A stretch of DNA of 64,000 nt from an uncultured Acidobacteriia bacterium (GTDB taxonomy: Bacteria > Acidobacteriota > Terriglobia > Bryobacterales > Bryobacteraceae). Made by a program: the position numbers and the translations under genes. This document shows, piece after piece, positions 4,910 to 30,467 of the stretch. Below the pieces are notes generated by a model. It had not been told where the DNA came from, did no database searches, and worked only from the letters and a program-made list of their open reading frames with translations. The DNA lies in the NCBI GenBank assembly GCA_903923395.1, contig CAIXXM010000106.1:1-64000 (forward strand). Reading direction: 5' to 3'. The first letter of the stretch is position 1. Each line of letters starts with the position of its first letter.

Positions 4910-4999
4910 CCGCTAGTGCGCTTAGTTCATTAGTACCACCGAAGAAACGCCAAATATAGGTTGTCTTTCGATAGGAAATCGGGGTTCTCTCTGCTCCTA

Positions 5000-5029
5000 T
5001 TGACAGAAACCACTTAGAAGTGGTGTTAT
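5000..5029 (+). promoter_or_regulatory. Near-leaderless promoter of hisC with internal inverted repeat
   Basis: TTGACA (5000-5005) and TGTTAT (5024-5029) are spaced 18 bp apart. The predicted start of transcription is within a few bases of the hisC ATG at 5037, and no Shine-Dalgarno sequence precedes that ATG. An inverted repeat ACCACTT-AG-AAGTGGT (5009-5024) fills the spacer and touches the -10, as expected for a repressor site. The assignment rests on sequence alone. Confidence 0.55.
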
Positions 5030-5036
5030 TTGGCTA

Positions 5037-6158
5037 ATGTCTCTGGTACCCCGTTGTATCGCCGAACTCGAGCCCTATGAGATCAGCCGCACGCCGGATG
5101 AAATCCGCCGGGAATTCGGTCTGGGGCGTGTGATCAAGCTCTCCTCGAATGAGAATCCGCTGGGGGCATCGCCCAGGGCTTTGCAGGCGATGCAGGAAGC
5201 CTTGCAGGGGGTGGGCAGCTATCCCTCCGGCGGAGTCCGCCTGCGGGAAGTACTGGCACGCAAGTTCGATGTCAGTCCGGCAAACGTGATCGCGGGCAGT
5301 GGTTCGGAAGGCATCATGTCCAACATCATCCGCACGTTTCTTTGTGATGACGATGAGGTGCTCACCGCGGAGGGCACGTTTATGGGCTTTCCCGTACTGG
5401 CCAAGTCCCGCGGTGTGGTTTACAACACCGTTCCGCTGCGGGACTGGGCTTTCGACCTGCAGGCGCTGGCCAATGCGGTAACGGAAAAGACCAAAATCAT
5501 CTATCTTGCGAACCCCAATAACCCCACGGGCACGATGTTCACCCGGCAGGAGTTTGACGCCTTCCACTGCCGCGTGCCGGACCGGGTCCTGATCATCCTG
5601 GACGAGGCCTACTTCGAATATGCGGCGGGCAACCCGCGCTATCCGGATTCCATGCATTACCGCTATGACAACGTCATCACCCTGCGCACGTTTTCCAAGG
5701 CTTACGGACTGGCAGGCGCGCGCATCGGTTATGGCTTCGCGCATGAGGAGTTGATCGCCAACCTGCTCAAGGTCAAGCTTCCGTTCGAACCTTCCGGACC
5801 CGCGGAGGCTGGCGGCATCGCGGCCCTGGATGATTTGGAATTCCTGCACACCACACTCGCCGTGAATGCGAAGGGTCTGCGTCTGGTGACAGACGAACTG
5901 CGGCGGATGGGCGTTGAGACTGTAACATCCGAAGCGAACTTCGTGATGACGGTCTGGCCCGATGCAGACCGCGCCCGGGAGGTCTATGGTGCCCTGTTGC
6001 GTCAGGGCATCATCACCCGCCCACTGCGCGCTTTCGGTATCCCCAATGGATTGCGCATCACCATCGGCGTGGAGGAGCAGAATCAGATGCTCCTCGAAGC
6101 GATGCGGAAAGCGGTTCTCGAACCCGCGTCAACTACTCCGCAGCTGGCGAATCGCTGA
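5037..6158 (+). CDS. hisC: Histidinol-phosphate aminotransferase
   Basis: PLP-dependent class I/II aminotransferase (373 aa) of the HisC family, converting imidazole acetol-phosphate and glutamate to L-histidinol phosphate. KLSSNENPLGASP, YPSGG, ANPNNPTG, ILDEAYFEY and TFSKAYGLAGARIGY are all present, with the PLP lysine at residue 221. Length is normal for HisC. No other his gene adjoins it; some HisC homologues act on aromatic amino acids, so specificity is not certain. The start ATG 5037 lies just downstream of a consensus-like promoter with no ribosome-binding site between, which suggests a leaderless message. Its 3' end overlaps the convergent HemQ-like gene by 26 bp. Confidence 0.88.
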   Translation: MSLVPRCIAELEPYEISRTPDEIRREFGLGRVIKLSSNENPLGASPRALQAMQEALQGVGSYPSGGVRLREVLARKFDVSPANVIAGSGSEGIMSNIIRTFLCDDDEVLTAEGTFMGFPVLAKSRGVVYNTVPLRDWAFDLQALANAVTEKTKIIYLANPNNPTGTMFTRQEFDAFHCRVPDRVLIILDEAYFEYAAGNPRYPDSMHYRYDNVITLRTFSKAYGLAGARIGYGFAHEELIANLLKVKLPFEPSGPAEAGGIAALDDLEFLHTTLAVNAKGLRLVTDELRRMGVETVTSEANFVMTVWPDADRAREVYGALLRQGIITRPLRAFGIPNGLRITIGVEEQNQMLLEAMRKAVLEPASTTPQLANR

Positions 6159-20191: not shown

Positions 20192-21691
20192 TCACGGGAG
20201 TGTCGCGGTATATTGTCCACTGAAGCCGCTCGAAAGACTCACCGTGCCGGTTCCTGACTGCGGCGTGCCCTTCACCAGGAGTGACCCACCAATCGTTCCA
20301 ATCCCATACCCTCCTGTGGCCAAGGTCTGCGTCAGCGTAAACGCGAAGGAACCCGTCACATTCGTCAGCACCTGCCCGGCAATCGGAAAAGCATTCGCCG
20401 GGGAACTAATCGTGGTGAAGGTGAACGTGGATTTCCCACTTAGCGTGCCGTTGAGGAACTTAAAGGGTCCTACGGTTGCCGTATAAGTGGTGTTACCCGG
20501 GTCAGGATTCACAAAGATTGCCAACTGCTCCTGGGGATACCCAAGGGACGAAAAGGTGAAGTACGAAGTAAGCTGTTTGAACGGTGCTACAACCGGCACG
20601 GCAATGGTCAGTGCGCCTTGCACGGCGCTTCCGCCGTAAGAAGCAATGATGTTGACGGTCTGCGTGGCAGTCACTGTAGCCGCTGTGACTGCAAACGTCC
20701 CGGAATCAGCGCCAGCGGGAATGGTCAGCGTAGCAGGGACGGAAGCATTGGTGGAACTGGATGACAACATCACGATCGCTCCACCAGGGGGCGCAACGCT
20801 GGAGAGAGTGACGGTACCACTCACTGTACCGCCCGGAAGGACCGAATTCGAAGAGAAAGTTACTGCCTTCGCCTGCGGCGCAGTCGCTGGACCTTGCAGT
20901 GGAATCACGACGCCCGCAGGTGTCTGCAAGCCGCCCACAGTGGCGCGAAGTGGTATATCCCCTGCACCAAGTCCGTCAGGAACTGTCAGGTTGATTTGAT
21001 AAAGCCCGGGGCTGGAAAGACCCACATAATCCAGAGTTACATTGGCATTGTTGATAACAAGACTGACGGGATTGTTGGCGGGCGCCGAGCCAGCCCAATA
21101 TCTTCCCGGGGGAATGGACGGACTGGTGGGACCGAAGCCCAGACAGAATAATTCCACAATGTCACCAGCCTTGGCTGAGACGGTCGGGTAGCCGAGCGAG
21201 GTTCCTGTGGGGCCAAGGATGTCATAAGTTCCCCCTCCATATGCGCCTGTCCCATCGGACCGGAGGATAATGCCGGCCACATGCTTCGAATCCAGGAGGC
21301 TGAATGTGGGGCCGAACTGGCCCAGAGTCACTGTGCTGGTGGCGGTACCGGCGGCTGTCCTTACCACTACGGAAACAGGTCCCGTCGCAGTATCGGCCGG
21401 AGTTTGAAGGTTAATCTGCGTGGGACTGACGAACCATATATACGCCGCCTTTCCATTGATGGAAACGCTGGTTCCCACCAGGGTAGTTGGAAAGTCTTGA
21501 TTCCATAACTTGGTGCTGGTGGCCAGGTTGGTCCCGTAGATAGATATCCATTCGCCCGGCTGTATCATGGGCGAAGTACTGTAAAGCGGAGTTACTCCGC
21601 CAGGGTTAATGGTGGGTGCCTGAGCCCAGGCGGATACTGCCAGACAAGTAAGCAGAATGCCGGTAATACTTAGGCGTTGCGCGACTGGCAT
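20192..21691 (-). CDS. Exported TIGR03437-type module protein with Ig-like domain
   Basis: A 499-aa exported protein (signal peptide MPVAQRLSITGILLTCLAVSAWA). The TIGR03437-type module occupies about 25-265, starting PMIQPGEWISIYGTNLA and containing WFVSPTQINLQTPADTATGP and SPGLYQINLTVPDG. An Ig-like segment (about 270-365) with VTFSSNSVLPGGTVSGTVTL follows, then a 130-residue C-terminal domain I do not recognise. Having the module at the N-terminus is unusual; in the other three proteins here it is C-terminal. Function unknown, likely cell surface or secreted. It is separated from the fucosidase gene by 74 bp, same orientation. Confidence 0.78.
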   Translation of the reverse strand: MPVAQRLSITGILLTCLAVSAWAQAPTINPGGVTPLYSTSPMIQPGEWISIYGTNLATSTKLWNQDFPTTLVGTSVSINGKAAYIWFVSPTQINLQTPADTATGPVSVVVRTAAGTATSTVTLGQFGPTFSLLDSKHVAGIILRSDGTGAYGGGTYDILGPTGTSLGYPTVSAKAGDIVELFCLGFGPTSPSIPPGRYWAGSAPANNPVSLVINNANVTLDYVGLSSPGLYQINLTVPDGLGAGDIPLRATVGGLQTPAGVVIPLQGPATAPQAKAVTFSSNSVLPGGTVSGTVTLSSVAPPGGAIVMLSSSSTNASVPATLTIPAGADSGTFAVTAATVTATQTVNIIASYGGSAVQGALTIAVPVVAPFKQLTSYFTFSSLGYPQEQLAIFVNPDPGNTTYTATVGPFKFLNGTLSGKSTFTFTTISSPANAFPIAGQVLTNVTGSFAFTLTQTLATGGYGIGTIGGSLLVKGTPQSGTGTVSLSSGFSGQYTATLP

Positions 21692-21798: not shown

Positions 21799-22794
21799 CT
21801 ACCGCCACATACGGAGTTCGCGGTAAGGCTGCTGCGCCCACTGTTCGGCAGCGTCCAGCACGGCTTTTGAGGCCCGGCGGTGCTTCTCTTTCCGGTCATC
21901 GCGGAAGCCCGCCTGCCCGGTGGGGTCTTTGGAATAAGAACCCATCACGCGCTCGAAACGCCTTGGCTGGATGCCCAGAAATGCAGAGGCTTCCAGAATT
22001 CCTTCGCTGTTCAGATCCGCATAATCCATGACCTTGCACTTACTGCGGTCATGGGCGGCGTCGAAGGCTTGCCGGGCGGCACGGCAGAAATCCCCCTGTA
22101 CATGTGCGGCATACACTTCCGGAGACATCCCGGTGATGTCCCACCCGAAGAGCTGTGCCGCCCTTGGCGGATCCTTTTGTAATTCCATAAAGCCGCCGCC
22201 GGGAAGATTCGCCACGATCACTTCCACCGGATCGCGCACGATCATGAGGAACGGAACCTCCGGCCACCACTTCCGCGCGGCCTCGATGCCAAGGGTGCAG
22301 ATACTCGGCAGTTTGACCAGCAGTTTCTCCGGCTCTCCGGTCTTGTACCTCGCAAACAGAGAAAACATTGCTTCGAGAGCCTGCCTTCGCCGCCCGTCCC
22401 AACGTGCTTTCAGGTAGGCGGAGGTCTCTCCGTGCGAGGGATAGAACAGATGATTCGCGGCCAGTGGCTCAGAAACCACGGAGACGCCCTCCGCAGTCCG
22501 CAGCGCATTCGCCAGCAGCGTGGACCCGCAGCGCGAAACATGAAAGATCAGCCCCGAAGGCCGCACCGGCGCACTTGCCGCAGCCGTTCGCAGGACCGTG
22601 TCGAGATCCGTGGTGATCTCACGCGCGGGCGGAACCTGCTCCCGCAGGCGCTGCATGGTGTGGACCATGAACGGATCTGTCAGCGGAGTATCGCCGAACT
22701 CCATCCACCGGACATTCGCCTTCGGGATCAACGTGGGGCGGAGTTGGATCTCGGTATGGACCGGCAGCCAGCCGCGGTCTGGATATTCGCTCAT
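21799..22794 (-). CDS. Sulfotransferase family protein
   Basis: A 331-aa PAPS-dependent sulfotransferase-like protein with no signal peptide. The 5'-phosphosulfate loop is in LIFHVSRCGSTLLANAL (Ser87-Thr92), and the 3'-phosphate motif is FLMIVRDPVEVIVANL. The N-terminal 75 residues are family-specific. Its ATG overlaps the stop of the JmjC/cupin-like gene by 4 bp, so it is the last gene of a tight four-gene set with two 2OG oxygenases. The acceptor is not known; context suggests a hydroxyl group or tyrosine on a peptide or protein, though small molecules or glycans are equally possible from sequence. Confidence 0.82.
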   Translation of the reverse strand: MSEYPDRGWLPVHTEIQLRPTLIPKANVRWMEFGDTPLTDPFMVHTMQRLREQVPPAREITTDLDTVLRTAAASAPVRPSGLIFHVSRCGSTLLANALRTAEGVSVVSEPLAANHLFYPSHGETSAYLKARWDGRRRQALEAMFSLFARYKTGEPEKLLVKLPSICTLGIEAARKWWPEVPFLMIVRDPVEVIVANLPGGGFMELQKDPPRAAQLFGWDITGMSPEVYAAHVQGDFCRAARQAFDAAHDRSKCKVMDYADLNSEGILEASAFLGIQPRRFERVMGSYSKDPTGQAGFRDDRKEKHRRASKAVLDAAEQWAQQPYRELRMWR

Positions 22795-23705
22795 GCCTCA
22801 TCTCCTACCGGCGGGATGAAGGTGACCACGCCCTTGCTATCCAGCACGGCAAGGAAATCCTGCAGTTCCTCCAGGTCATAACCGTCATGAAACGCGGCGA
22901 AGAACTTGTTCACGGAACAAGGCGCATGGTCCTCCAGGAAATACAGGAGTTCCGCGGCATCTTCGGGAAAGTAGACTGCTTCACCGCCAAATTCCACCTG
23001 AATCACTTCCGGTGCTGCGGATTGTACACGCAGCTTGCGGGGAACCGCCATCACCACGCGCCAGGCCTGCGGCAGATCCACGTTCCAACGCACGCCAGGG
23101 AGTTCACGCGGCATCGCATGGCTGCTGCGATGTTCGGCGAAGCGTTCGAGAAGGCCCGGTCTACCGACCTCGGCCCACACGGCTTTCTGCAGGTGCTCCA
23201 GATAATTCGCCCGCGCGCCAGGGCCTTGGAAACGGGGTACTGCGGATGCCCAATGCGGATCTTTGGCAATCCGGTCTGCGATGAAGCCCCAGAGTTCGCC
23301 GCCGGAGGGATTGTGTATTTCCAAGGCCAGGATCGCGGCACCGGGGCCTGTTTCCGCGCGCCAGGAATAATGCGCCGGGAGATACAGGGCGTCACCTTCC
23401 AGCAAACTGATGGTCCCGGCGCCCGGTCCGAACTCCCAGGAACTCCAGCCGGCGGCTTGCAGCAGGATGATCTCGGCCCCGCGACCCGTGCCGCCAGAGG
23501 AATAGTCCGCCAGTGAGACCGGGCACTCCAACAGACGCTCCCAATGGTGTGCCAGCAGGACCGCTGCCTTCGAATCCGCGGGCAAGAGTCCGGCAAAGCG
23601 ACCCGGGTACCCGGCTGACTGCAGATGTTTTTGGCCGAAATATTGGCCCAGAAACTCAGCTTCCGTGAAGGGGCTCAAGACATCTCTGGGCAGCAGGCAT
23701 CGCAT
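22791..23705 (-). CDS. JmjC/cupin_4-like protein without the iron-binding motif
   Basis: A 304-aa protein resembling ROXA/cupin_4 oxygenases that hydroxylate ribosomal proteins. The opening PFTEAEFLGQYFGQKHLQSA is the usual lead-in (aromatic-x-Lys-x-Leu) before the jelly-roll. The strand pair GDALYLPAHYSWRAE is the distal-His region. The HxD iron motif expected before it is not visible. The C-terminal 70 residues (VYFPEDAAELLYFLEDHAPC...VVTFIPP) resemble the winged-helix tail of ROXA proteins. It may be a non-catalytic partner or use altered ligands. It starts 10 bp after the oxygenase-trigger factor gene and overlaps the sulfotransferase start. Confidence 0.65.
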   Translation of the reverse strand: MRCLLPRDVLSPFTEAEFLGQYFGQKHLQSAGYPGRFAGLLPADSKAAVLLAHHWERLLECPVSLADYSSGGTGRGAEIILLQAAGWSSWEFGPGAGTISLLEGDALYLPAHYSWRAETGPGAAILALEIHNPSGGELWGFIADRIAKDPHWASAVPRFQGPGARANYLEHLQKAVWAEVGRPGLLERFAEHRSSHAMPRELPGVRWNVDLPQAWRVVMAVPRKLRVQSAAPEVIQVEFGGEAVYFPEDAAELLYFLEDHAPCSVNKFFAAFHDGYDLEELQDFLAVLDSKGVVTFIPPVGDEA

Positions 23706-23715
23706 AGGGTGGAGC

Positions 23716-25002
23716 TCAGGACAGCCCGGCTAACTCAACCGCGGTTGCTTCCCGTTCGGAAAGAGGCACCTGCGCGAGGATGGCTTGCAGCACGCGCTGC
23801 TCCAGTTCGCTTCCCGATTGGGCCTGCATCCCCCACCGTCTGGCCAGTTCCTGGATGACGATTCCTACCCGCACCCGGCGTTCTGCAATGGCACCAAAAT
23901 ACCGGCGTGCCTCCTCCAGGTCCGGACCTTCGGGCGGGAGTTCCTGCTGTTCGGCCACCTTCCAGACCGCTTCGAATTCCCGCGCCACCAACCCGGGGGG
24001 CACTGGAAACCGGTAGAGTGCGTCCAGTTGCGTGAGGACCTGGCGAGATAGATGCGCCTGCAACGCGCCTGCTAACTCCGCTGGTCCCGTCAGCCGCTCC
24101 ACCTGCATGACCGAAAAATCGACTTCAGGTAAGTCAGAAAGTTCCGTACCAGTAAGTTCCACAACGGCACTGCCGGACTCTGCACCGCTAAGCACCTTGC
24201 CGCCAACCGCGACAAAGCCCTTACGCAATTGTTCGTCACAGAGCTGTGCAACCACGCGTTGCAGGGCATGAGCCCTGGCGGAAGCCCCGTATCGCTCTTG
24301 AAGCATGTCACTCGGAATCTGGCCCGCTGGATACTCGGGAAGGCGTACCGTCCGGTTCATCTGCTGCAGATATTCGGCGATTGGATTTTGCAACTGTTCC
24401 TCAGGGATCTCAATCGAAATGGTCTTGCCAACAAAAGGCTCCGGCGCGGGCGCAGCAGCAAGTTCGCCATCCGCAATCAGTTTGAAAGCTACCGTGATGC
24501 GCAGGCCATGGAAATCCCTGCTGGGCGCGCGGCCCTTGTGAAGAATACGGGAATCGAAGAACACGGCCCGGTTGGGCAAAGGCAGAATGGCGGCTTCGAT
24601 CTCCATTTTTTCGTCGTAGAAGACCGTGTCTCCATCCCAACTGCGGTCCCATTCCCCGTGCGGGTAGTAAAGCAGCGTATAACTGCCGGGGCGCGAATCA
24701 TCCTGATGCGGCTCGCCGCCCTGGCCGAAGGTGTGGCCGTTGGCGTAAACCCGCAGGAGCTTCAGCCGGACCCCCGCGAGAGCTTCACAACGGGGCTTCG
24801 CCTCATTCCAGATCGCCTGAAAGACTGGTTCCTGTTCGAGATCCAGCTTCCAGAACCTGTGGGTTCCGGTCTTGTTGGAGGCGTTGCCGAAATACCAGCC
24901 CTTGCCGTTGCAGACCGCCAGCGCGGCGCGGTGCGCATCCGGGGCGGCAAAGTTCTCCAGCACTTCGAAGACAGGCTGCATTGTTTCAGACATCGGCACC
25001 AT
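23716..25002 (-). CDS. 2OG-Fe(II) dioxygenase fused to trigger-factor-like chaperone domains
   Basis: A 428-aa fusion. Residues 10-180 are a prolyl-4-hydroxylase-type jelly-roll: iron ligands His99-x-Asp101 (EPHQDD) and His155 (RILHKGR), 2-oxoglutarate Arg168 (HGLRITVAF). Residues about 192-280 match the trigger factor ribosome-binding domain (TISIEIPEEQLQNPIAEYLQ; DMLQERYGASARAHALQRVV), but the GFRxGK signature reads EYPAGQ, losing the Arg and Lys that contact the ribosome. Residues about 330-425 match the trigger factor C-terminal arm domain (FPVPPGLVAREFEAVW; AERRVRVGIVIQELARRWG). The PPIase domain is absent. I infer a hydroxylase that carries its own substrate-holding chaperone. The start overlaps the PiuC-like stop by 17 bp (8 bp if ATG 24993 is used). 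Confidence 0.85.
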   Translation of the reverse strand: MVPMSETMQPVFEVLENFAAPDAHRAALAVCNGKGWYFGNASNKTGTHRFWKLDLEQEPVFQAIWNEAKPRCEALAGVRLKLLRVYANGHTFGQGGEPHQDDSRPGSYTLLYYPHGEWDRSWDGDTVFYDEKMEIEAAILPLPNRAVFFDSRILHKGRAPSRDFHGLRITVAFKLIADGELAAAPAPEPFVGKTISIEIPEEQLQNPIAEYLQQMNRTVRLPEYPAGQIPSDMLQERYGASARAHALQRVVAQLCDEQLRKGFVAVGGKVLSGAESGSAVVELTGTELSDLPEVDFSVMQVERLTGPAELAGALQAHLSRQVLTQLDALYRFPVPPGLVAREFEAVWKVAEQQELPPEGPDLEEARRYFGAIAERRVRVGIVIQELARRWGMQAQSGSELEQRVLQAILAQVPLSEREATAVELAGLS

Positions 25003-25657
25003 ACCGGATGAGATTTTGTTCGGCCTTGATCAACAGGTGCAACAGGTCCTTCTCTCCAGCCTTCGTTGCGAGATCAGTGGCACGCCGCAGGTCGTAGAGC
25101 ACTTCCCGAAGCTCGCTATGGCGGATGAGGCTCTGCATCCATGTTACGACTGCAAGCCGTACACCACGGGTCACCGGATTTACCTTGTGCAGGGTACTGG
25201 CGGGGTAGACGAACGCCTCACCAGCGTCGAGTTTGATTTCGACGGGCCCGGAATCCTGCATCACCACAAGTTCGCCACCGTCATACGTTGCCGGAGGACG
25301 AAGAAAGACGGTCATGGCGAAGTCGGTGCGTTGTAAAGAACCCAGCCCGCCCATTACTGCACCATCCACGTGATACCCGTAATTCATGCCAGCCTCGTAG
25401 CGGCTGTAGAGAGGAGCATAGACCTTGGCGGGCATCACGAAGTCCATCAGCGCCGAATGTCGCTGGATGGCGTGGAACACGGTGCGGTCTAGTTCGGAGG
25501 CGTCTGTCTTCGTACGGTCCAGTTGGAGGTTTTGCTTGACGTCACGCGCAGGACCACCTGCGGTGGCTTTGCCATCAGCAAAGACGCCCGATTCTATAGC
25601 CCTACAAATTGATTCTGCGTCTTGATGGGAGAGTAAGCGGAACGATTTGAAGTTCAT
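24986..25657 (-). CDS. PiuC/PKHD-type Fe(II)/2-oxoglutarate dioxygenase
   Basis: A 223-aa member of the PKHD-type hydroxylase family (PiuC/YbiX). I take the ATG at 25657 (MNFKSFRLLS), which gives the normal family length; the longer in-frame extension runs through the intergenic region. Iron ligands are His96-x-Asp98 (GYHVDGA) and His157 (STLHKVNPV), with Arg167 (GVRLAVVTW) for 2-oxoglutarate. RTDFAMTVFLRPPATYDGGE is also diagnostic. It is the first enzyme gene after two PEP-CTERM genes and overlaps the oxygenase-trigger factor gene. The substrate is unknown; YbiX-like proteins are commonly tied to iron uptake, but no TonB receptor is near. Confidence 0.85.
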   Translation of the reverse strand: MNFKSFRLLSHQDAESICRAIESGVFADGKATAGGPARDVKQNLQLDRTKTDASELDRTVFHAIQRHSALMDFVMPAKVYAPLYSRYEAGMNYGYHVDGAVMGGLGSLQRTDFAMTVFLRPPATYDGGELVVMQDSGPVEIKLDAGEAFVYPASTLHKVNPVTRGVRLAVVTWMQSLIRHSELREVLYDLRRATDLATKAGEKDLLHLLIKAEQNLIRYGADV

Positions 25658-25743: not shown

Positions 25744-26283
25744 TTATTGCTTGGAGCGGCGGCGACGCCACGCGAGAGCACCAGCCAGAGCGACACCAGC
25801 AAGGGCGGACGTGCCGGGTTCCGGTGCGGATGAGGTAGTTGCGTCGGTTGCGAAGCTATAGTTGGAGGTGTAATCTTCGGAATCATAACCGATGGTTAGA
25901 TTTCCATCACTCCCTACAACCACGCTGTTGCTAATGGGAACTCCTTCCACACCTAAATTCGCGAACAGAGGGCTCGAGGTATTCGCACTATCAAAGATCA
26001 AAAAACTACCTTCAAAGCCGCCCAAGGGTATGAAGGAAAAGTTGATGGTCCCGGGAGTGAGACCCTCAAGCTCGAAGTATTGGTTTAGCTCCTCGCCGAG
26101 CCCGTTGACCGCGGTGGTGCCAGCGGGCAACACGGTCGGGTTGTTCTTGTCCGTGCTGAACGCACTGGTCGCCGTGAAAGTGGTTGCGCCAGCCGGTACG
26201 GCGGCAGCGGCGGTCAAACACGTTGCGGCTAGCAAACCTTGGCCTACTTTGAGAACAGATTCGACATTTTGCATGTCCGTCAT
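25744..26283 (-). CDS. PEP-CTERM protein, first paralogue of the oxygenase locus
   Basis: A 179-aa exported protein ending in a PEP-CTERM sorting signal: APEPGTSALAG, a hydrophobic helix, then WRRRRSKQ. The N-terminal signal region has LLAATCLTAAAAVPAGA. The mature part is about 110 residues with a beta-sandwich-like pattern (GTINFSFIPLGGFEGSFLIF). It is clearly paralogous to the next gene upstream (shared GQGLLxATCLTA, FELxGLTPG, SPLF). The segment GEELNQYFELEG puts a Tyr among acidic residues. PEP-CTERM proteins are processed by exosortase; none is encoded in this window. The gene lies 86 bp upstream of the PiuC-like gene and may be a substrate of that locus. Confidence 0.82.
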   Translation of the reverse strand: MTDMQNVESVLKVGQGLLAATCLTAAAAVPAGATTFTATSAFSTDKNNPTVLPAGTTAVNGLGEELNQYFELEGLTPGTINFSFIPLGGFEGSFLIFDSANTSSPLFANLGVEGVPISNSVVVGSDGNLTIGYDSEDYTSNYSFATDATTSSAPEPGTSALAGVALAGALAWRRRRSKQ

Positions 26284-26353: not shown

Positions 26354-26908
26354 TCACTTCGACCGGCGGCGGCGCCACGCGAGGACACCAGCCAGAGCCG
26401 CACCAGCAAGAGCGGTCGTTCCAGGCTCTGGCGTCGCAGAAGAGTAGGTTGCGTCCGTGGTCAGCGAAATGGGATTACTGTAATTACCATCGAACCAGTA
26501 CTCGAACGTCAAATTGCCGCCGGAGGGCACAGATAGGCTGCTTGTAACGTTGTTGTACGTCGAGAAGAGAGGGGTCGAAGTGTTCGCACTGTTGTAGATG
26601 TAGAAATCACCTTCGAAGAAACTGCCGTGGGTGAAGGTGAAATTCAGCGTATCCCCGGGGGTGAGGCCCGAGAGTTCGAAGTATTGAAATTCTTCCCGGG
26701 TGTAACCCAGATAGTCTTCTCCCAGCATGTCCACCTCGGTCGTACCAGAAGGCAGGATTGTGGGCGAGTTGTTGTCGCTGCTGAACTTCGTGGACTGCGT
26801 GAAGGTGCTGGCTGCCGCAGGAACCGCAGCGACTGCGGTCAGGCAGGTGGCTGTCAGCAGGCCTTGGCCAGCCTTCGTCAAAGTTTCATTCCATTTGGTT
26901 GATTGCAT
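26354..26908 (-). CDS. PEP-CTERM protein, second paralogue of the oxygenase locus
   Basis: A 184-aa exported protein, paralogue of the neighbour at 25744. It has an N-terminal signal region (GQGLLTATCLTAVAAVPAAA) and a C-terminal PEP-CTERM signal (TPEPGTTALAGAALAG, then WRRRRSK). I take the ATG at 26908, which has TGGAGGA upstream at good spacing; a GTG directly before it is too close. The mature part contains GEDYLGYTREEFQYFELSG, a Tyr-rich acidic stretch longer than in the paralogue. It is the first gene of the minus-strand run leading to the oxygenases and sulfotransferase, so a promoter probably lies at 26912-27000. Confidence 0.82.
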   Translation of the reverse strand: MQSTKWNETLTKAGQGLLTATCLTAVAAVPAAASTFTQSTKFSSDNNSPTILPSGTTEVDMLGEDYLGYTREEFQYFELSGLTPGDTLNFTFTHGSFFEGDFYIYNSANTSTPLFSTYNNVTSSLSVPSGGNLTFEYWFDGNYSNPISLTTDATYSSATPEPGTTALAGAALAGVLAWRRRRSK

Positions 26909-27001
26909 CACGTTCCTCCAACGAAGTAATTGCCTTGGGAGAGATTATCAAATTGCACCAGCCTGAGGCAAGTATATTCGGAGATTCTGCATTGAAACCT
27001 G

Positions 27002-28846: not shown

Positions 28847-29467
28847 CTAGAGCGTGTTGCGTTTGCGGCGGTAAGCCAGCAATGAGGCCGCGGCCAAAAC
28901 CACCAGGCCGAGGGAAGCAGGCTCTGGCGCAGACGAGGCGGTAACGTCCACTTGAAGGTCGTACGACGAATTGTACGTGTTTCCAGTTCCGAAGATCCCG
29001 GAGTTGGGAACTCCGGATGCGTTCTTAATTTCTGTGGTGAAAGTAGACCCATCGTTGACCAGGGTATACAAATTCGACGTGCCAACCGGTGCGTTCGACA
29101 AGGCCGTCAGTGTGAAGGTGAAGAGAGTGTAAGTGCCTGCACTTCGAGAGACCGAATCACTCATTCCGAAATCATAAATCCCACTTCCGGCAGATCCATT
29201 CGTGGTGATGGTCGGGGTAGTGGTGTAGAGGTTTCCTGCCGTGAAGTCACTGACAGAAAACTCAGTGGGATCAAATCCCAGAACTACCTGTGTTACGGTA
29301 GCCGAAAATGAATTGTTCGCCACGAAGGTCTCCGACACTGTGATGCTGGAACCCTGCTCTACCGTGGCAGGTCCGGTGATCTTGTAATTGCCAAGAACGT
29401 TGGCGGATGCGCTGCTGGCGGTGATGGCGATTGCAGCGAAGATGAGGAGACTCGACTTAAATTACAT
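28847..29467 (-). pseudogene. PEP-CTERM protein gene with a stop at codon 2
   Basis: Reading from 29467 on the minus strand, AAGGA and 5 bases precede ATG, the next codon is TAA (29464-29462), and the same frame then gives a good signal peptide (FKSSLLIFAAIAITASSASA) and an uninterrupted mature protein. That protein has a cohesin-like pattern (VVLGFDPTEFSVSDFTAGNL, LFTFTLTALSNAP) and ends with SAPEPASLGLVVLAA and YRRKRNTL, a PEP-CTERM signal. The first standard start after the stop is GTG 29338, beyond the signal peptide. The gene is a fresh pseudogene, uses a non-standard start, or contains a sequence error. It is a close paralogue of 29826-30467. Confidence 0.6.
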
Positions 29468-29825: not shown

Positions 29826-30467
29826 CTAGCGAGACTGGCGTTTGCGGCGGTAAGCCAACAGGGAACCAGCGGCCAACAGAACAAGGCCTGCGGTCGCGGG
29901 TTCAGGTGTGGCAGCGGACGTCACATTGATCTGAAGATCGACGGGCGAATAGTAGGTCGTGCCGAGCCCATTGAGCGGAGTTACGGCGGTCCCGCCGTTC
30001 GATACCCGCGACGAATACCCGGCGCCGTCATTCACCAGCGTAAATAGATCTGAATTGCCCGTTGGGGCATTCGCAAGTGCTGTCAGTGTGAACGTAAAAA
30101 GGCTCACCGCCGTTCCGCCAGTGAGCGAAACAGACCCTGCAGTGCTGCTCGCACCAAAATCATAGATCCCAGAACTCGGGGAGGTGTTCTTGTCCGCAGT
30201 GGAGGATGAGAAGATGTTGCCCATCTGGAAGTTGCTGACGGAAAATACCGTTGGATCAAAGCCGAGAACTGCTTGGAACTGGTCCGCATTCTCGGTCAGG
30301 GGAACGAACTTCTCTGTGACGGTGATGCTGGAGCCTTTCGCCAATGAGTATGGTGCGGTTCCAGAGGTCGTGACCTGGAAAATATTCGCTGCGGCACCGA
30401 AAGCGCTGCTGGAACTGAGTGCCGCGAGGCAGGCGAGTATGGAGGAGTGAAGAAGAGTACGTTTTAT
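29826..30467 (-). CDS. PEP-CTERM protein with ATA in the start position
   Basis: Paralogue of the 28847 gene, with the same order of motifs: VLGFDPTVFSVSNFQMGNIF, LFTFTLTALANAPTGNSDLF, TPEPATAGLVLLAAGSLLAY, RRKRQSR. The frame upstream of the TTG at 30344 continues through a convincing signal peptide (KRTLLHSSILACLAALSSSS) back to ATA at 30467, with an in-frame TGA five codons before that. No ATG, GTG or TTG lies between this TGA and the end of the signal peptide. Either ATA serves as start or ATG has mutated to ATA. Starting at TTG 30344 would make an unexported protein. The mature part looks cohesin-like. It is the second defect in this tandem pair. Confidence 0.6.
   Translation of the reverse strand: MKRTLLHSSILACLAALSSSSAFGAAANIFQVTTSGTAPYSLAKGSSITVTEKFVPLTENADQFQAVLGFDPTVFSVSNFQMGNIFSSSTADKNTSPSSGIYDFGASSTAGSVSLTGGTAVSLFTFTLTALANAPTGNSDLFTLVNDGAGYSSRVSNGGTAVTPLNGLGTTYYSPVDLQINVTSAATPEPATAGLVLLAAGSLLAYRRKRQSR

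Follow-up and report, generated by a model that had tools for sequence, protein, structure and literature searches.

Introduction

Several described systems each share one part with the protein that is the subject of this report. Bacterial trigger factor (tig; TIGR00115) has in common with it an N-terminal docking module and a C-terminal arm module, which are homologous by profile; our protein differs in that it has no PPIase domain, carries an oxygenase at its N-terminus and has lost the docking loop. The P4H/PHD2-type 2-oxoglutarate (2OG) protein hydroxylases have the same fold and the same HxD...H plus Arg residues as its other half, and differ from it in that they have no C-terminal part derived from trigger factor. 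Collagen P4H binds peptides through a different domain. For a natural, reduced trigger factor that exists alongside a complete one there is a precedent in plastid Tig2, which is described as a truncated trigger factor with a GFR ribosome-binding motif that works in ribosome biogenesis (PMC11731035); the protein studied here differs in keeping both docking and arm domains and in gaining an enzyme. Two further families are related to its gene neighbours. The ROX ribosomal oxygenases (RoxA/YcfD, NO66 and MINA) share their fold with a JmjC-like neighbour that differs by its lost Asp and distal His, and the PiuC/YbiX PKHD-type hydroxylases include a second hydroxylase of the same locus, which differs from them by its trigger-factor-like and exported neighbours.

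Each of these domains is already known; what appears to be new is that they occur together with a dedicated exported partner. The original prediction, made from the letters of this DNA, knew of no described enzyme that joins a hydroxylase to trigger factor domains. Within the open-access literature we found no paper that joins trigger factor and a 2OG oxygenase, which does not imply absence from print. Among the open-access matches listed for trigger factor without PPIase or GFRxGK, no such fusion appears by title; among those listed for FlmC or 2OG the name FlmC belongs only to an unrelated Lactobacillus protein, no paper that links FlmC with an oxygenase being found; and open-access searches for PEP-CTERM with hydroxylase and sulfotransferase, or for sulfotransferase with 2-oxoglutarate and signal peptide, found none.

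Results and Discussion

An oxygenase joined to two trigger factor modules

The window, by which we mean the whole stretch of 64,000 nucleotides that was analysed, contains on its minus strand an ATG-initiated gene (23716..25002) for a 428-residue protein. Pfam matches above gathering place 2OG-FeII_Oxy_3 at residues 93-162 (E 6.5e-8), Trigger_N at residues 193-260 (E 6.2e-7) and Trigger_C at residues 309-404 (E 8e-13). The P4H-type oxygenase domain is estimated to occupy approximately residues 8-177 (24472..24981, minus strand), and the trigger-factor-like part approximately residues 190-428 (23719..24435, minus strand). As originally claimed the PPIase domain is missing: Pfam finds no PPIase (FKBP) match in the fusion, and the two trigger factor blocks flank its place. 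In a phmmer search of PDB chains the fusion matches E. coli trigger factor (1w26) at E 3.1e-6, a profile built from nine fusions reaches the same chain at E 1.1e-19, with one matching segment before the PPIase domain and one after it, and hhalign against E. coli tig returns the same two blocks. The AlphaFold2 model of the fusion has a pLDDT of 83.8 and a pTM of 0.52, because of which the relative placing of its halves is not reliable; Foldseek with this model finds PHD2 and viral and bacterial P4H structures for the oxygenase, and E. coli trigger factor 2vrh (E 1.1e-7 over 425 alignment columns). Pfam, the PDB profiles and AlphaFold2/Foldseek, which include the structure prediction and the profile search by which the original prediction was to be checked, agree, and the fusion of a P4H-type oxygenase with both trigger factor modules is real.

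His99, Asp101, His155 and Arg168, named beforehand for the oxygenase, are invariant in all nine aligned fusions; we take HxD...H to be the iron triad and the Arg/Lys position to bind 2OG. By fold and active site the protein is a P4H-type 2OG oxygenase, for which hydroxylation of a protein or peptide is predicted. The top NCBIfam model for the oxygenase half is NF052475 (FlmC family 2OG oxygenase; E 6.5e-18), yet the score of 65.4 bits against a cut-off of 240 puts it outside the FlmC family. Nor is the protein a trigger factor by strict membership, since it scores 63.2 bits against the TIGR00115 cut-off of 180.2, has no PPIase domain and has lost the docking loop, although its modules are homologous to those of trigger factor. 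We considered whether it replaces the tig of its genome and rejected this, as a complete trigger factor (383 bits) is encoded on a different contig of that genome.

Relatives and their distribution

Relatives were gathered from a 200-genome draw of the host family, a profile scan of genome contigs and all 237 host-family genomes. In total nine fusions and three relatives with the trigger factor (TF) part only were found, in Acidobacteriota, in Rudaea and in two metagenome-assembled genomes (MAGs) labelled Acetobacteraceae and Prosthecobacter; these labels are the records' own, and MAGs may be misbinned. The fusions are that of the window, L035 (genome G068), L036 (G072), L037 (G814), L038 (G163) and L041 (G195) and, outside the host family, L039 (Rudaea sp.), L042 (Acetobacteraceae MAG) and L040 (Prosthecobacter-labelled MAG); the TF-only relatives are L025 (G093), L026 (G013) and L209 (G818). 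Pfam recognizes the oxygenase and Trigger_N in 9/9 fusions and Trigger_C in 7/9. The survey of homologues thus gave nine loci with the same domain order in a recurring cassette, and chance or a frame artefact is rejected by that repeated order. In L040 the fusion ORF (4913-5929, 338 residues) stops before the arm domain, which may reflect a truncation, a frameshift or an assembly fault.

Elsewhere in the genomes searched the fusion is rare: it is present in 1 of 197 around Rudaea (13 others with matches at E≤1e-20 match the profile partly), a set of 200 around the Acetobacteraceae MAG likewise has it once and, in a phylum draw, it occurs in 1 of 396, namely the window's own genome; the second match of that draw, G484, is to an oxygenase only, and the draw scored four candidates per genome and so can miss members. 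Scanning genome contigs with a single sequence gave 98 pattern matches and no relatives. Such patchy spread suggests horizontal transfer of the fusion. A phage origin was rejected, none of the best 80 of 218 related viral-contig loci matching beyond query residue 180, as was a plasmid copy: 12 plasmid records match, none over 80% of the query, and among the ten of these that were listed six match the oxygenase part and four the arm part.

The fusion gene lies in a recurring cassette

Neighbouring genes in the window, all on the minus strand, are read in the order companion 2 (26354..26911), companion 1 (25744..26283), PiuC-type hydroxylase (24986..25657), fusion, JmjC-like protein (22791..23705) and sulfotransferase-like protein (21799..22794). 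Companion 1 is an exported protein with a TCLT-type signal peptide and a PEP-CTERM tail, recognized by Pfam PEP-CTERM and by alignments, and companion 2 is 59% identical to it by alignment. The PiuC/YbiX-type Fe(II)/2OG hydroxylase scores above the cut-off of NCBIfam PRK05467.1-3 (221 bits against 143) and matches Pfam 2OG-FeII_Oxy_3; its ORF as listed extends to 25771, and the start at 25657 was picked by alignment. The PiuC-type and fusion genes overlap by 17 bases, the fusion and JmjC-like genes are 10 bases apart, and the JmjC-like and sulfotransferase-like genes overlap by 4 bases. The operon, its second hydroxylase and the exported partner, a candidate client, had been missed by the original prediction.

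HMMs built from the cassette proteins were run on the ORFs of the relatives' loci. The PiuC-type hydroxylase is present in 12/12 cassettes, and the companion in all twelve genomes that have the TF part. The JmjC-like and sulfotransferase-like genes occur together in six of the twelve, which we call long cassettes, the other six being short. Rudaea sp. 3F27F6 has a long cassette, and G818 and G072 have short ones. The companion gene is immediately upstream of the PiuC gene in 11/12; the contig of G068 starts within the PiuC gene, and there the companion follows the sulfotransferase gene.

Extra genes of the long cassettes

The model of the 304-residue JmjC-like protein (pLDDT 86.5) resembles NO66, YcfD and MINA, having the JmjC fold and a C-terminal extension (Foldseek, best E 3.9e-13), and hhalign matches the protein to RoxA at E 3.7e-7; its profile also matches many other cupins. 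Aligned with E. coli RoxA, the Asp and distal His iron ligands are absent from 6/6 of these ROX-type proteins, and the first His aligns in 2/6. Because these ligands are missing, the protein is, judged from its sequence, most likely a pseudo-oxygenase, and for the same reason an active third oxygenase was rejected. A search at E≤1e-5 did not find the 304-residue protein in any of the six genomes with a short cassette (0/6), and the controls G000 and G163 were positive.

The sulfotransferase-like protein scores 21.2 bits against the Sulfotransfer_3 gathering threshold of 27; two blocks, CGSTL and R(D/N/E)P, are invariant in 6/6 of these proteins, and both (CGSTL and RxP) are presumably PAPS-binding motifs. 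In G195 the JmjC-like and sulfotransferase proteins are fused as one 638-residue ORF (L041 9357-11273; also L023), suggesting joint action of the two.

The ribosome-docking loop and the history of the cassette

When it is aligned with E. coli tig and the twelve relatives, the window protein reads EYPAGQ at its docking loop position (residues 223-228; 24319..24336, minus strand), where E. coli trigger factor has GFRKGK and the host tig GFRPGK; the GFRxGK signature is lost from this protein as had been predicted. Its loss is not a family trait, since six of the twelve relatives still have it, five as GFRPGK and one as GYRPGK, and it is precisely the cassettes without JmjC-like and sulfotransferase genes that keep it. 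The long cassettes read EYPAGQ (the window), GFRGGS, GVRPGQ, GFAPGQ, GFRPGQ and one string without resemblance. A "chaperone released from the ribosome", as the original prediction had it, can consequently fit the long-cassette branch only.

In a tree of the TF part a branch supported at 90/92 separates the six long-cassette members from the rest; this tree was made without L040, whose TF part is only 111 residues long, and it has no branch at the starred level. The oxygenase tree does not show the long-cassette group and needs three changes. Both extra genes were likely gained once, with differing loop erosions following, so that the six altered loops are not independent events. At the start of the TF-only protein L026, some 20 residues still match the N-terminus of the oxygenase (local score 60, where the best of 500 shuffles scored 40), and owing to this remnant we consider that L026 lost its oxygenase from a fusion ancestor; remnants in L025 (44 against a shuffled maximum of 41) and L209 (38 against 37) are marginal.

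The exported companion protein

Companions are small proteins with a signal peptide, judged by eye, around a motif LLxTTCLT. PEP-CTERM is matched in 9/11 at E≤1, the window companion scoring above Pfam gathering, and the companion from Rudaea, in which the domain is present twice, lacks a PEP-CTERM tail. We read a PPC-like domain in the companion by eye; Pfam PPC matches 1/11, at E 0.36. Ordinary signal peptides are not expected to show a motif more alike than their remainder. Among 14 companion sequences the mean pairwise identity of the motif is 0.57, against 0.36 in the remainder of the signal peptide, 0.31 in the mature part and 0.43 at the C-terminus, in a comparison whose rows were trimmed on the motif, which favours motif conservation; the companions of G814 and G816 were examined separately, outside these 14. 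The sole near-invariant proline of the mature part (LPxGT) is absent in L209, and so no hydroxylation site stands out in the 14 sequences.

The companion model has 34 matches in its own genome, and its N-terminal part is matched by only the two cassette-adjacent proteins; that the companion is just another PEP-CTERM protein was rejected on this ground. None of the approximately seven usable N-termini of the other matches, from plus-strand ORFs at 20 of the 34 loci, has the motif. When all 237 host-family genomes were searched at E≤1e-20, the companion was present in 9/9 genomes with the TF part versus 2/228 without it (Fisher p ~1e-14, a guide only, as the genomes are related), a count that is favoured by the fact that six of those nine genomes supplied rows of the companion model. 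The three that supplied none (G013, G814 and G818) all have the companion (3/3, p ~5e-6, likewise a guide only among related genomes). The exceptions are G816, whose companion carries the full motif and is encoded at the edge of its contig, so that its surroundings are not covered, and G142, where a relative of the companion has a weakened motif and both TF part and cassette are absent.

Other proteins of the window deserve mention. After a gap of 107 bases the sulfotransferase gene is followed by the gene of a 499-residue IPT/TIG-domain protein (20192-21691, minus strand), whose N-terminus, GILLTCLAVSA, is a loose fit to the companion motif; it is a possible second client, or the likeness is chance. 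Two more PEP-CTERM-like proteins are encoded between 28847 and 30344 on the minus strand (28847-29338, with a weak Cohesin match, and 29826-30344), and both have no companion-type signal motif.

A proposed modification cassette with its own client

These findings are consistent with the idea that the genes form a client-specific modification cassette in which the trigger-factor-like part holds the companion unfolded for hydroxylation, on the ribosome in the short cassettes or off it in the long ones; we give this reading a probability of roughly 0.55. It is gene order, co-occurrence and the leader-like motif that point to the small exported protein encoded beside the cassette as the client. 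The original proposal that an unfolded peptide is held for hydroxylation is supported, as something that we infer. The trigger-factor-like module would recognize the companion precursor, probably through the TTCLT-type signal peptide, and would keep it unfolded in the cytoplasm, so that it can be hydroxylated prior to export by the PiuC-type enzyme and by the fused P4H domain of those members that have one. For proteins that read GFRPGK this would most likely happen at the ribosome during emergence of the chain; among the long cassettes, including that of the window, docking would have eroded, the catalytically dead ROX-type protein would probably be a scaffold, and the sulfotransferase would probably cap the new hydroxyl, to which sulfate may be added. 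Several observations count against this reading, namely the G142 companion relative noted above, the L040 ORF that stops short of the arm domain, the lack of an outstanding hydroxylation site, the separate TF gene of G013, where companion and PiuC stand together on another contig, and the three TF-part genes (L025, L026 and L209) that have no fused oxygenase, which is therefore dispensable there.

A more specific form of this reading, in which modification is guided by a leader, is tentative and in our judgement somewhat short of an even chance. The TF module would read the signal-peptide motif at the ribosome and hydroxylation would precede export, and a later branch would have lost docking after gaining the dead ROX scaffold and the sulfotransferase; the signal peptide would then be a RiPP-like leader of an ordinary-sized secreted protein. 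If the cassette does act in this manner, the general nascent-chain chaperone has become the arm that gives a modifying enzyme its specificity, the operon of this enzyme names its client, and hydroxylation, perhaps also sulfation, of a bacterial protein during translation or before export becomes directly testable in a natural series with ribosome docking kept or lost. It would also suggest a role for PKHD-type hydroxylases, and the signal peptide would be an enzyme-recognition leader.

The retained docking loop of the short cassettes could also mean that the enzymes act on a protein of the ribosome or one associated with it, the trigger-factor-like and ROX-like parts bringing hydroxylases to the ribosome (compare RoxA/YcfD on L16) and the companion being merely co-inherited. 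The similarity of the JmjC-like protein to the ribosomal oxygenases NO66, YcfD and MINA fits such a role, but this protein has no iron ligands and is present just where docking is lost, and the association with the companion is left unexplained; we consider a ribosomal substrate unlikely. Slightly less likely still is that the trigger-factor-like part is a plain holdase for the companion, with the fused oxygenase and PiuC acting elsewhere or sensing oxygen or iron. The TF-only cassettes L025, L026 (with its N-terminal oxygenase remnant) and L209 are what a holdase would lead one to expect; against it, PiuC is present in every cassette with its iron ligands intact in 8/8 aligned proteins, as they are in 9/9 fused oxygenases, and because of this conservation catalysis is under selection in most cassettes.

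Finally, the enzymes might make or modify a siderophore-like small molecule, with the companion as an exported protein that binds it or has a structural role for it. The name of PiuC refers to iron uptake and our literature search met no established PiuC substrate, but biosynthetic genes were not seen in the loci listed, and a protein substrate is the better match for a client-holding chaperone fused to an oxygenase of the P4H/PHD-like, protein-type kind. We regard this explanation as very improbable. The client-specific modification cassette remains our preferred reading.

Standalone relatives of the oxygenase

Relatives of the oxygenase that stand alone bear on the same reading. Directly upstream of 3/7 of them is a FecR or FG-GAP gene whose product looks exported (L043 6675-8516, L044 6457-9249 and L046 6604-8531), and these neighbours point towards an exported client here too; the other 4/7 loci have no such neighbour among the ORFs listed, which counts against it. 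In L044 a PKHD-type hydroxylase also adjoins the standalone oxygenase. A PiuC-type and oxygenase pair in L048, titled as a Klebsiella pneumoniae MAG, is very similar to that of the Gammaproteobacteria MAG L049, and for this reason the title of L048 looks doubtful.
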